DNA of 39,760 nt, taken from positions 1 through 39,760 of the forward strand of contig CALWNV010000009.1 of the NCBI GenBank assembly GCA_944382895.1, in the 5' to 3' direction. Both the position numbers and the translations under genes were made by a program. This document shows, piece by piece, positions 34,237 through 39,007 of the stretch (positions are counted from its first letter, which is position 1; each line of letters starts with the position of its first letter). This DNA comes from an uncultured Clostridia bacterium (GTDB lineage Bacteria > Bacillota > Clostridia > Oscillospirales > UBA644). A model generated the notes under the pieces. That model saw only the letters and a list, made by a program, of their open reading frames with translations, was not told where the DNA came from and searched no databases.

Positions 34237-35088
34237 TTATTTTTTTGTCAAAGTAACGCAGACCACCTCTGGACACATGAATCTAAAGCTTACGCCTGAA
34301 GAACCGAGTCCGCGTGAGACAACAAGTTTATCCTGTTCGCTTTCATAAACTCCTTTTGCGTATTTTGGGAAAAACGCGTTTTTCCCTATTTTTTGTATAA
34401 ACGGTGTGCCGCCTGCCGGTGATATCAGCGGTCCTATAAAAGGTAAATCGATAAATCCGCCGTGTACATGCCCGGAAAGCATAAGATCGGGATGTTTTTC
34501 CATGTTATCGTATACAAGAGGGTCATGATAAAGAAAAATATTGAATTCATCGTCTTCAAATTCGGGTTTATATGGGCCGTATTCATGCCAACTGTATCCG
34601 AAAAGCGCGATTTTATCGCCGTTTTCCGCAGTCAGATATATTTTTTCGTGTCGAAGGTTGATAACTCCGGCTTTTTCAAGACTTGCTGAGAACGTTTCAA
34701 ATGATTCCGGTGTTTTCCGGTAAGGAGAGGGGTCATGATTACCTTCCACATAATATACTGGATATTTATCCGCTATCGCTTCCGCGAAATAATAAAACGA
34801 TGGATTCAGGTTTTCCGCATTATGCATATCTCCGGAGATCATTACGACATCGGGGTTTTCTTCTTCTATTATCTTCAGAATACGACTGTTGTTTTTCCCG
34901 TATTGCTTGTCATGCAGGTCCGAAAGAAGAATTATTTTATATCCGTCAAACCCTTCAGGAAGATTTTCGTACCGCAGCGTGTGCTGTATTACGTTTATAT
35001 GTGTGTTTACATATATCATGAATATGATAAACGCAAGTAACAGCGCGCCGAGGATTGTATATATTATCATCTTTTTTTTCCTTTTCAT
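34237..35088 (-). CDS. Membrane-anchored metallophosphoesterase (YkuE/YaeI-like)
   Basis: A 283-residue calcineurin-like phosphoesterase. One N-terminal membrane helix (about residues 8-28) is preceded by Lys/Arg-rich MKRKKK, so the catalytic domain should face outside. All metal motifs are present: LLSDLHDKQYG, MISGDMHN, VEGNHDPS, LYHDP and SGHVHGG. Close families include YaeI/YkuE phosphodiesterases with lipid-like or cell-wall substrates. The substrate here cannot be told. ATG 35088 has AGGAG 8 nt upstream. It is upstream of secG on the same strand but secG has a separate promoter. Confidence 0.9.
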   Translation of the reverse strand: MKRKKKMIIYTILGALLLAFIIFMIYVNTHINVIQHTLRYENLPEGFDGYKIILLSDLHDKQYGKNNSRILKIIEEENPDVVMISGDMHNAENLNPSFYYFAEAIADKYPVYYVEGNHDPSPYRKTPESFETFSASLEKAGVINLRHEKIYLTAENGDKIALFGYSWHEYGPYKPEFEDDEFNIFLYHDPLVYDNMEKHPDLMLSGHVHGGFIDLPFIGPLISPAGGTPFIQKIGKNAFFPKYAKGVYESEQDKLVVSRGLGSSGVSFRFMCPEVVCVTLTKK

Positions 35089-35156
35089 ATACTGCTCCTA
35101 TCAATCCTTATAATTATACCATTAAAATATTTTTGTGTCAATATATATCCAGCCTC

Positions 35157-35185
35157 TTTACAATGAAGAAAATTTGTAGTATAAT
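35157..35185 (+). promoter_or_regulatory. Promoter of the M50-scpAB-gerW operon
   Basis: TTTACA (35157-35162, 5 of 6), a 17-nt spacer and TATAAT (35180-35185), followed by GGAGG at 35203 and ATG at 35214. Confidence 0.85.
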
Positions 35186-35213: not shown

Positions 35214-35879
35214 ATGATTTTTCAACTGTTTGATGGGTTTGGCGACAGATACGGGGATATCCGGTATATAGTTGTCGGCGTTATTTGTATGGCGGCACTG
35301 TTTGTTTTCTTTTATCTTCATAATCTTTTCAGTGTTGGATTTTGCAGGTTGTTCAGAAACAGATGTGAGAAAGGTGCTGCTTCTCCGAGGTCGGTTTTTT
35401 GTTTGAGCAACACGGCGTCTGCGCTCCTGTTTTTTTTGTTCGGCTGTTGCTGGAAAGAGCAGCAGGGCATTCCATCTCGTAAAAAAGCGGCGACTGTTTT
35501 TGTATCTGTTTTTACGCTTATATGCTGTGCGGCCGTGTCTGTTTTATTTCTTCTTGCCGGCGCGTTTCTTAATCTTTTTTCCGAAAAGTCATTTTTTGCT
35601 TTTGCTGTTTTACCGTTTGTGATTTTTTTCAGAGCACTTTTTATGATTGGTGTTTGTATCGTCATTTTTTCGTTTATTCCTCTTCCGCGTTTTATGCTCG
35701 GTAATATAATATGTGCGTTATTGCCCGTGTCTGTCGCGGAAAAATTTGAGAAAGCTGCCCCGTACTCTTTTTTCTTTGTAATGATAATCGCGGTGTTCGC
35801 CGGAAGAGGCGGTATGATCGAATCTCTTTATTCTATTGCGGGTACCTGGTCGGCGGATCTGCTTTCTCTGATAATATAG
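35214..35879 (+). CDS. Degenerate M50 (site-2 protease)-like membrane protein, likely inactive
   Basis: A 221-residue protein with about five to six membrane segments. I find no clear family by itself, but it is collinear with the next gene, an M50 protease. His36 aligns with its catalytic His37, a GxxW at 77-80 with 79-82, an SR at 88-89 with 90-91, and FSFIPLP at 152-158 with FNLVPFP. The HExxH motif reads HNLFS and the downstream LDG region reads FMLG, so both zinc-binding motifs are lost. A pseudoprotease is therefore likely. GGAGG lies 6 nt before ATG 35214. It ends 13 nt before the active homologue. Hydrophobic and Cys/Phe-rich. A chance resemblance is possible but unlikely given the order of matches. 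Confidence 0.6.
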   Translation: MIFQLFDGFGDRYGDIRYIVVGVICMAALFVFFYLHNLFSVGFCRLFRNRCEKGAASPRSVFCLSNTASALLFFLFGCCWKEQQGIPSRKKAATVFVSVFTLICCAAVSVLFLLAGAFLNLFSEKSFFAFAVLPFVIFFRALFMIGVCIVIFSFIPLPRFMLGNIICALLPVSVAEKFEKAAPYSFFFVMIIAVFAGRGGMIESLYSIAGTWSADLLSLII

Positions 35880-35892
35880 CGGAGGGTAATTT

Positions 35893-36582
35893 ATGATAAT
35901 CAGTAATCTTTTTATGTTGATTGATGGGGAAATAAGCATCATTAAGTTTATTCAAGTTACTTTGTTTGTTTCGGTTGCGGTAATAATAGCGTTATCGGTG
36001 CATGAATGTTGCCATGCTGTCGTTGCGTATTGGTTTGGGGATAAAACGGCGAAGTCTCAGGGGAGGATAACTCTGAATCCTTTCAGGCATATGAATCTTA
36101 TAGGAACGCTTATGCTTTTGATAGTCGGTTTCGGTTGGGCAAATCCTGTCATCGTGGACAGCCGTAATTTTAAGAAGCCCCGTTTGGGTATGGCTTTAAC
36201 CGCTGCCGCCGGTCCTGTTTCAAACCTTCTGATGAGCTTTATTTTTTCTTTCTTGTATGTTTTTTTGTATATAAAAATTGAGCCACTTTTTTCAAATGTA
36301 TTAATCGAAAATCTTTTTGAGCTGTTTAGATATATTATTATTATAAATATGTCTTTTGCGATTTTCAATCTTGTTCCTTTCCCCCCCTTGGACGGCTCAA
36401 AAATAATCGGTGAGATGCTTCCGCTTAAATACCGCTATAAGTATTATTCACTCGAGAGGTTCTCGCTTATCTTTTTTTTAGTTTTAATAGCGCTATTGAG
36501 GTTTTTTGATTTTTTGTCGATAGTAAATACTAACTTAAGTAATTTGTTTATATATATATCCGTACTTATTTTGGGGATATGA
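35893..36582 (+). CDS. M50 family site-2 protease
   Basis: A 229-residue membrane metalloprotease of the small soluble-domain-free M50B (Rv2869/YdiL-like minimal) kind. The zinc motif HECCH is at residues 37-41, and the second zinc ligand is Asp167 in FPPLDGSK. A GPVSN motif (107-111) is also conserved. It has about five to six helices and no PDZ or CBS domain. Such enzymes cut membrane-bound factors within the membrane; the target is unknown. GGAGGG is 8 nt upstream of the ATG. It follows the degenerate homologue by 13 nt and overlaps scpA by 4 nt. The neighbourhood with scpAB and gerW hints at links to cell-cycle or sporulation but does not prove it. Confidence 0.92.
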   Translation: MIISNLFMLIDGEISIIKFIQVTLFVSVAVIIALSVHECCHAVVAYWFGDKTAKSQGRITLNPFRHMNLIGTLMLLIVGFGWANPVIVDSRNFKKPRLGMALTAAAGPVSNLLMSFIFSFLYVFLYIKIEPLFSNVLIENLFELFRYIIIINMSFAIFNLVPFPPLDGSKIIGEMLPLKYRYKYYSLERFSLIFFLVLIALLRFFDFLSIVNTNLSNLFIYISVLILGI

Positions 36583-37313
36583 ACGTGACCGGACTGACAT
36601 ATAAACTCGAGGTCTTTGAGGGGCCTCTTGATCTTTTGCTTGATCTGATTGAAAAACACAAGCTTGATATATACGACATAAAAATATCTCTTCTTACTGA
36701 GCAGTATATGCTTTATATTGCTAAAGCCAGGGAGCGTGACTGGGATCTGACAGCGGATTTTATTGAAATGGCTGCGAGGCTGCTTTATATAAAATCGTGT
36801 TCACTGCTTCCATCGCAGAATGATGAGGAAGAAGATCCGAAAGCTGATTTGGAACGGCTTTTAAGGGAATATTCTGTATATAAGGCTTTATCAGGGGAGA
36901 TGAAAGACAGATATATAGGTTCGGATATTTTTTTTCGCGAGGTTATACCATCAGACTTGCCTAAAGCAGCGGCGGATTATAGTTATTCATCGGACAGGCT
37001 TGAACTTGCATACCGACGGGTGATTGCCGCATATGAGGCAAAAAGAATTACCCCGAAGGCTTTTGACAGGCTGATAGGAACAAAGATAGTGTCGGTGAAT
37101 TCGAGGATACTCTATGTCCTTAAAACAATAAGAAGACGTTCAAAAGTACGGTTTATAAACCTTTTTGACGAATGCCGCAGCCGTTCGGAGATAGTCGCGA
37201 CATTCCTTGCTGTTTTGGAGCTTTTACGTGCCGGACGTTTGGATACGGAGGAATCGGGCGATGATATAATTATAACTCTAAGTACTGTCTCGGATAAAAA
37301 ATCGGTACGGTGA
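36579..37313 (+). CDS. scpA: Segregation and condensation protein A
   Basis: A 244-residue kleisin. The N-terminal SMC-binding part has YKLEVFEGPLDLLLDLIEKHKLDIYDI, the family hallmark, and then FIEMAARLLYIKSCSLLP. An acidic linker follows, and the C-terminal winged helix (about 165-240) has VRFINLFDECRSRSEIVATFLAVLELLR. ScpA bridges the SMC heads with ScpB in chromosome condensation. ATG 36579 overlaps the M50 gene by 4 nt. scpB begins 40 nt downstream after a small GC-rich hairpin region. Confidence 0.95.
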   Translation: MNVTGLTYKLEVFEGPLDLLLDLIEKHKLDIYDIKISLLTEQYMLYIAKARERDWDLTADFIEMAARLLYIKSCSLLPSQNDEEEDPKADLERLLREYSVYKALSGEMKDRYIGSDIFFREVIPSDLPKAAADYSYSSDRLELAYRRVIAAYEAKRITPKAFDRLIGTKIVSVNSRILYVLKTIRRRSKVRFINLFDECRSRSEIVATFLAVLELLRAGRLDTEESGDDIIITLSTVSDKKSVR

Positions 37314-37353: not shown

Positions 37354-37929
37354 ATGGATATACAATTTCTTACAGCGGCCGTTGAGGCTGTTTTATATGC
37401 TTCGCCGACGCCGGTGGATCCTGACAGACTGGCAGCGGTTATTGGAGTTGATAAGGAAGAGCTTCTTGCTGTTTTTGATAAAATATTCGGTGATTGTATG
37501 AACGAAAATCGGGGAATAGAGCTTTTATGCAAGAACGGAATGTTTATGTTTGCGACTAAAAAAGAGTTTGGACAGATTGTTTCAGGTTATCTTGCGTCGC
37601 GCCGCCCCGGTCTTTCGAGCGCGGCTATGGAGGTTCTTGCGATCGCGGCGTACAATCAGCCGGTAACAAAGACATATATCAGCCAGATCAGGGGTGTTTC
37701 GTCTTCTGAGATAGTGGAATCTTTGGTTGAAAAAGGGCTTTTGGCGGAAGACGGAAAAATTGATGTTCCAGGAAAACCTATGGGGTATGTTACTACTGAG
37801 AAGTTCTTGGCGGTTTTTAATCTTGACAGTCTTGATGATCTTCCTGAGAATGACCTGATGCGCGATGCCGCAGGCGATTTTTATATGTCTGGGGCGCGGG
37901 GACAGACAATCCTTGCCGAAAGTGAGTAG
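37354..37929 (+). CDS. scpB: Segregation and condensation protein B
   Basis: A 191-residue ScpB with two winged-helix domains (about 1-80 and 85-160). The second has MEVLAIAAYNQPVTKTYISQIRGV, the hallmark of the family, and GRPMGY-like PGKPMGYVTTEKFL. It binds ScpA as a dimer. ATG 37354 is preceded by GGACAGG, a weak site only 2 nt away from the start if that is the SD. The 40-nt gap from scpA contains a small CCGGC/GCCGG stem, so translation could be tuned here. Other in-frame starts are not better. The next gene begins 3 nt downstream. Confidence 0.94.
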   Translation: MDIQFLTAAVEAVLYASPTPVDPDRLAAVIGVDKEELLAVFDKIFGDCMNENRGIELLCKNGMFMFATKKEFGQIVSGYLASRRPGLSSAAMEVLAIAAYNQPVTKTYISQIRGVSSSEIVESLVEKGLLAEDGKIDVPGKPMGYVTTEKFLAVFNLDSLDDLPENDLMRDAAGDFYMSGARGQTILAESE

Positions 37930-37932
37930 AAA

Positions 37933-38574
37933 ATGGAAATTCTGCGTATAATACTTATAACATTCGGTTCAATCGCAGGCTTTTTTGTCTTTGCCGTGAT
38001 GCTTTTTTTGTTTTGTCCGATAAAAACAGAGATCGTTTATGGCGAAAGTAAATTTGTCAGAATACGTTTTTTGTTTTTTAGGTATACTTTTACGTCCGAT
38101 AAAGTGAAAACACTGGTCAGAAAGAAAAAGCGGGCAGGGCATAAGGCTACTGAAAAATCTGAGGAAGACGGTGCGTCGGCTGAGCCGGAAAAGGATATTG
38201 AGAAAAAAGCCGCGTCAGAGTCTGAGAAAACCGATAAAAAGGAAAAAATTTCTTTGGATGATATTTTTACTATTGCTGATGCGATTATAAATAAATTTGT
38301 AAAAAAGCTTTATTTTAATCTGGTTTCACTTGATATAACCGCTGCTTCCTCTCAGGCGGATAAAACCGCGATATTATACGGGAGATTGAATGCGGGAATA
38401 TACCCTCTCTTAGGAATGATAGATTCTGCCGGACGGCTTGGTAAGTCTCATGTCAATATAGTTCCTGATTTTACGTCGGAAAAGTTTTCGGCAAAGGTTC
38501 ATATAATGATATCTACGCGATTGGTTTATATTTTGAATTGCTTTTTATATCTTAAAAAAGAAAAAATAATATAG
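37933..38574 (+). CDS. DUF2953 domain protein
   Basis: A 213-residue protein with one N-terminal membrane helix (about 5-29), a polar middle of Lys/Glu-rich low-complexity sequence (about 64-105), and a C-terminal part with FNLVSLDITAASSQADKTAILYGRL that fits DUF2953. The family occurs in sporulating Clostridia and Bacilli, commonly next to GerW/YtfJ, as here. Its exact role is unknown. ATG 37933 follows scpB by 3 nt, with AGTGAG as a weak ribosome site within scpB. Confidence 0.78.
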   Translation: MEILRIILITFGSIAGFFVFAVMLFLFCPIKTEIVYGESKFVRIRFLFFRYTFTSDKVKTLVRKKKRAGHKATEKSEEDGASAEPEKDIEKKAASESEKTDKKEKISLDDIFTIADAIINKFVKKLYFNLVSLDITAASSQADKTAILYGRLNAGIYPLLGMIDSAGRLGKSHVNIVPDFTSEKFSAKVHIMISTRLVYILNCFLYLKKEKII

Positions 38575-38596: not shown

Positions 38597-39007
38597 ATGG
38601 AAAACAGAGAACATCCCATCCAGGGAGTAATGGAAACTGCGATGAAGAGTATAAGGGAAATGGTTGATGTAAACACTATTGTAGGCAATCCTATAACTAC
38701 TGCGGACGGTTCGACTATAATCCCCGTATCAAAAGTAGGCTTTGGTTTTGCGTCAGGAGGTTCGGATTTTAAGCAGAAAAATCATACTGAAGGTGAAACC
38801 CCTTGTTTTGGCGGAGGAAGTGGCGCAGGTGTGACAATAACCCCGATAGCGTTTTTGATTGTTTCCTCAAACGGCGGAGTATCTCTTCTTCCTGTCGACA
38901 ATCCGCAGTTTTCCGCAGTGGATAAAGCGATCGATATGCTTCCCTCTATGGTGGACAAGCTTAAAGAAGCGTTTTCAAAAAAGAAGTGCGACCGTGAAAA
39001 CGACTGA
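38597..39007 (+). CDS. GerW/YtfJ family sporulation protein
   Basis: A 136-residue protein of the GerW (YtfJ) family. The family start HPIQGVMETAMKSIREMVDVNTIVG is intact, as are GNPITTADGSTIIPVSKVGFGFASGGSDF and the Gly-rich GGGSGAGVTITPIAFLIV. In Bacillus, GerW is needed for normal spore germination. This is good evidence that the organism, or its ancestor, forms spores. GAAAGGAAGG lies about 8 nt before the ATG. It ends the scp operon. Only a hairpin without a T run (39120-39150) follows. Confidence 0.92.
   Translation: MENREHPIQGVMETAMKSIREMVDVNTIVGNPITTADGSTIIPVSKVGFGFASGGSDFKQKNHTEGETPCFGGGSGAGVTITPIAFLIVSSNGGVSLLPVDNPQFSAVDKAIDMLPSMVDKLKEAFSKKKCDREND

Follow-up and report, generated by a model that had tools for sequence, protein, structure and literature searches.

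A predicted dead site-2 protease homologue encoded beside its active paralogue upstream of scpAB in a family of gut Clostridia

What does a site-2 protease (S2P) homologue do once its catalytic motifs have gone, when an intact copy is encoded immediately downstream? The question is posed by a 39,760-nucleotide stretch of DNA from an uncultured Clostridia bacterium (order Oscillospirales, UBA644), referred to here as the window, where two adjacent forward-strand genes precede scpA and scpB. The first, P (35214..35879, that is, 35214-35876 plus the stop codon; 221 aa), begins with an ATG preceded by the ribosome-binding sequence CGGAGG and was classified from its profile match, AlphaFold model and dN/dS as a putative pseudo-M50, a dead S2P homologue. 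The second, A (35893..36582, that is, 35893-36579 plus the stop codon; 229 aa), is an active-type M50 protease; the coordinates of both genes had been given correctly in a first-pass annotation of the window. The HECCH and PPLDG motifs of A are intact, PF02163 is matched at 6e-14, and the AlphaFold model (pLDDT 91) aligns with S2P targets in VIA-align at Z scores of up to 11.5, so that A can be classed by sequence as an ordinary compact M50 protease of the scpA-linked type. On the same strand follow scpA (36579..37313; PF02616, 6.9e-20), whose start overlaps the stop of A by four bases, scpB (37354..37929; PF04079, 4e-46), a gene for a ytfI-like DUF2953 protein (37933..38574; PF11167, 7.8e-6) and ytfJ/gerW (38597..39007; PF09579, 9.6e-30).

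Searched alone against Pfam and NCBIfam, the window P hit none of their M50 models, and a BLASTP comparison with the window A aligned only 57 residues, in the stretch around IPLP, with an E-value of 8e-5. When a profile of 18 P proteins was aligned by hhalign with a profile of the A proteins of the same genomes, the match extended over the full length (224 columns) with an E-value of 7e-30 and a probability of 99.8%, which rules out chance similarity and places the likeness of P and A far beyond it. Against the A profile of other families the same profile gave E 1.4e-24. PF02163 was matched by 11 of the 18 P proteins at E-values up to 1 (best 1.3e-7), the window P not being among them, and a search of PDB sequences with the P profile recovered RseP chains weakly (E 0.004). 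A Pfam match of P to Tweety at E 0.015 was below the cut-off and was taken as chance. Annotation can mislead in this group, some P proteins scoring as M50 and others, including that of the window, passing without any M50 match.

The AlphaFold model of P is of moderate confidence (pLDDT 78.5, pTM 0.72), and its helix order is that of A. Foldseek found no significant match to this model in the PDB. With VIA-align the top five PDB entries were all S2Ps, at Z scores from 10.1 to 7.8 (RseP 10.1, MjS2P 9.6, RasP 9.2, SpoIVFB 7.8), the next unrelated entry scoring 6.5; helical bundles can reach such Z scores by chance, and the fold match is therefore taken as support for the profile result and not as stand-alone proof. 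P is homologous to M50 proteases over the protease domain and the S2P transmembrane core, and we regard it as a full-length M50 homologue that has lost the catalytic site and, by its model, kept the fold. P has the same fold and length as the compact scpA-linked M50 S2Ps, with helices in the same order and the same IPLP loop, but has no HExxH, and many members have lost the LDG aspartate as well.

In the family alignment the former HExxH of the window P reads HNLFS (residues 36-40; 35319..35333, forward strand), with His36 on His37 of A. GCCW of P is aligned with GFGW of A, and the IPLP block of P (IPLPRFML, residues 155-162; 35676..35699, forward strand) with VPFP of A, the position of the LDG aspartate being occupied by Met161. 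The first-pass annotation had anticipated the HNLFS and the loss of LDG, and had described P and A as matching position by position; this holds for His36/His37, for GxxW and for IPLP, and is slightly overstated for an SR pair, since S88-R89 of P does not lie on S91-R92 of A but on a PR/PK of A a few residues later (R97). The window P thus has neither the HExxH nor the LDG/DG aspartate of an active M50 protease, and is predicted to be a catalytically dead homologue of A.

None of the 18 family members has an HExxH in P. The position is occupied by HNLFS in the window, HDWAE in genome G004, REYVR, REYIR or REYVK in most of genus g2, RRWGQ-like sequences in genus g7, and RGIGR, STLIQ or FAAVQ in other members. 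The LDG aspartate is lost in the window, G002 and G005, replaced by Asn in G007, G009, G011 and G013, and kept in the rest. G015 and G019 have HAVGH together with LDG, so that both His residues and the Asp are kept and the catalytic Glu alone is replaced, by Ala. This form amounts to a natural catalytic-Glu-to-Ala substitution; it may still bind zinc and is a useful intermediate. Pro156 is the sole invariant residue of P. Near the last helix, residues 197-200 (35802-35813) form a C-terminal motif that is [AS]RSG in many members, GRGG in the window and replaced in g7; A has NRF-like residues at this site, and the motif may mark a function of P's own.

Losses of the zinc site were placed on a species tree built from A, ScpA and ScpB. 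The second His of P is kept in G015 and G019 alone, which lie inside genus g2, and must therefore have disappeared in four or more lineages; for the first His and for the Asp the minimum is three lineages each. Because the zinc ligands were lost in parallel lineages, the ancestor of P in the family most likely still had them, and from the homology to A we infer an ancestral duplicate with HExxH.

P lies directly upstream of A, at a distance of 3-28 bases, in 18 of the 18 family genomes that hold the locus, a count that spans seven genera and leaves out G017, where the contig ends just before A, and G018, which is 61% complete and has no scpA match. Among the P-bearing genomes are that of Candidatus Geddesella stercoravicola and those of uncultured Clostridia sampled from animal guts (rumen, cecum, colon and rectum type). 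At an E-value of 1e-27 the 18-member profile found no P outside the family in 374 other genomes of the order (394 searched) or in 397 other genomes of the phylum (398 searched). P proteins score 138-266 bits against this profile, whereas the closest active proteases do not exceed about 104; the best matches in 290 further genomes of the class were ordinary HExxH proteases. In other families of the order A adjoins scpA without P, and 18 genomes at the order level have an HExxH M50 gene before scpA, with no second M50-like gene found upstream of it. Conservation of a pseudo-M50 across the family is thus close to certain. The first-pass annotation had proposed that an enzyme/pseudoenzyme pair shares an operon with scpAB, and had named a predicted structure unlike M50 and a random absence of the gene among relatives as findings that would speak against it. 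Neither was found, as the P model is M50-like with S2Ps leading its VIA-align matches and P is present at every testable family locus; homology, HExxH loss and gene order agree with the proposed pair. The P profile scores 73-104 bits on the A proteins of its own family and 54-79 bits on those of other families, the pattern that an origin of P by tandem duplication in that family would predict. AU tests on a tree with long branches rejected neither a single clade of P nor a single clade of P with the family's A (p 0.4).

These data suggest that the dead copy has a function other than proteolysis, probably that of a partner to A: P is encoded with A, is never found without it, and has kept the protease core, which makes a partnership the most likely reading. 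We put the probability that P is a non-catalytic functional partner of A, whether it gates the enzyme, holds its substrate or inhibits it, at about 0.5. In the proposed mechanism, a lineage-specific duplicate of an M50 S2P would have lost its catalytic site and kept its fold. The product would be made together with A and act as its non-catalytic membrane subunit, which may hold or present the substrate helix or block the lateral entrance to the active site of A, making cleavage by A conditional. More tentatively, P and A could form a tandem-encoded enzyme/pseudoenzyme S2P heteromer, in which the dead subunit, released from catalysis, would have lost its zinc site independently in four or more lineages and yet retained its structural role.

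The adjacency and co-occurrence of P and A would show the same pattern if P acted alone. An independent membrane-protein function, for example the binding of lipid, metal or a client, with P beside A merely because of its origin by tandem duplication, is an explanation that we consider unlikely but worth weighing seriously. P diverges 2-3 times as fast as A, the window P is only 12-24% identical to other P members, the zinc site is lost, and adjacency can persist by descent. Since P is fast-evolving and has a single invariant residue, a conserved interface could not be named. Against independence, the pair is together in all seven genera and has never been separated, although the other flank on the contigs differs. 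Still less probable is that P serves as a substrate adaptor or decoy, binding transmembrane segments and either handing them to another protease or protecting them. Retention of the S2P fold and the IPLP loop region after loss of catalysis would suit such a role, for which YqgP (PMC7231995) and iRhoms (PMC6451368) are precedents, but the locus has no link to FtsH or any other protease, and A is the obvious neighbour. That P is still a protease, using other residues, is very improbable, since G015 and G019, which retain HxxxH and LDG, have Ala in place of the general-base Glu, and elsewhere the ligands vary by lineage with no conserved replacement set.

A decaying duplicate heading for loss, as the weak sequence conservation and missing catalytic residues might suggest, was rejected as highly implausible on dN/dS, the conserved promoter and ribosome-binding sequence, and retention across the family. 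Only one close pair had an unsaturated dS (0.50); there dN/dS was 0.163 in P against 0.046 in A, and more distant pairs, in which dS is high or saturated, point in the same direction. P is under purifying selection; with its catalytic residues gone and the protein retained by selection, it has the features of a pseudoenzyme. Its reading frame is open in 18 of 18 genomes, with a Shine-Dalgarno-like sequence before most starts. A promoter-like site, TTTACA-17-TATAAT (35157..35185, forward strand; 11/12 consensus match), is located 28 nt before the start codon of the window P, and 13 of 16 relatives have a match of at least 10/12 no further than 100 nt from P, where 0.38 would be expected. The gene order P-A-scpA-scpB, with short gaps, lies behind this conserved housekeeping-type promoter, and P probably heads an operon of these four genes that is transcribed vegetatively.

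A part for the pair in sporulation or chromosome segregation had also been proposed in the first-pass annotation. Spo0A and SpoIVA are both absent from G007, G009, G011 and G013 (genus g2, at least 90% complete) and from G017, absence in draft genomes being somewhat doubtful; these genomes form one clade and therefore represent one event, a single natural experiment. The four g2 genomes keep P and A, and all five, including G017, keep ytfJ. P is thus not restricted to spore formers, and its retention together with A and gerW without Spo0A and SpoIVA, along with the housekeeping-type promoter, makes a sporulation role unlikely. The presence of gerW next door was considered as a sign of sporulation and set aside, since ytfJ is kept in this clade as well and is no sporulation marker there. 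Relatives of the g2 clade have both Spo0A and SpoIVA, which suggests that sporulation was lost and ytfJ retained. For a link of P and A to chromosome segregation, the one piece of evidence is adjacency to scpAB, a neighbourhood shared by the A of many families that have no P.

Control of intramembrane metalloproteases is known in few cases. BofA and SpoIVFA are membrane proteins that control SpoIVFB by blocking the S2P cleft (PMC9042235), and P may act on A in an analogous way. The BofA/SpoIVFA mechanism is bound to sporulation, whereas P is an M50 homologue that persists in genomes lacking Spo0A and SpoIVA. BofA itself is not known to be an M50 homologue. EGY3, an Arabidopsis chloroplast S2P relative without HExxH that is classed as a pseudoprotease, is retained like P alongside active paralogues (PMC12389704), but is a nuclear-encoded plant protein, whereas P is bacterial and probably shares an operon with the active paralogue beside it. 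The iRhoms and derlins (PMC3149277, PMC6451368) are likewise dead intramembrane proteases, which work by way of other proteins or clients; they differ from P in being eukaryotic and in having the rhomboid (serine protease) fold. YqgP acts as an adaptor for FtsH (PMC7231995). In a literature search covering few subscription journals, we found no bacterial pseudo-S2P paired with an active paralogue and no paper on an M50-scpAB link. A dead paralogue beside the live enzyme throughout a family would offer a natural system for studying whether S2Ps are subject to control by their own pseudoenzymes, comparable to that by iRhoms in rhomboid-linked pathways.

If P is a partner of A, A itself carries no marked signature of adaptation to it: the differences specific to the family come to four conservative positions. 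Positions just after GWA.PV (L141-L158), together with window residues 88 and 100, differ conservatively between the family and the rest of the order. Upstream of P, the reverse strand carries a perfect 12/12 sigma-70-type promoter (35113-35141; TTGACA-17-TATAAT, with TG before the second hexamer), which reads away from P towards a divergent gene at 34237-35088 encoding a 283-aa protein that we take, by the look of its sequence, to be a metallophosphatase.
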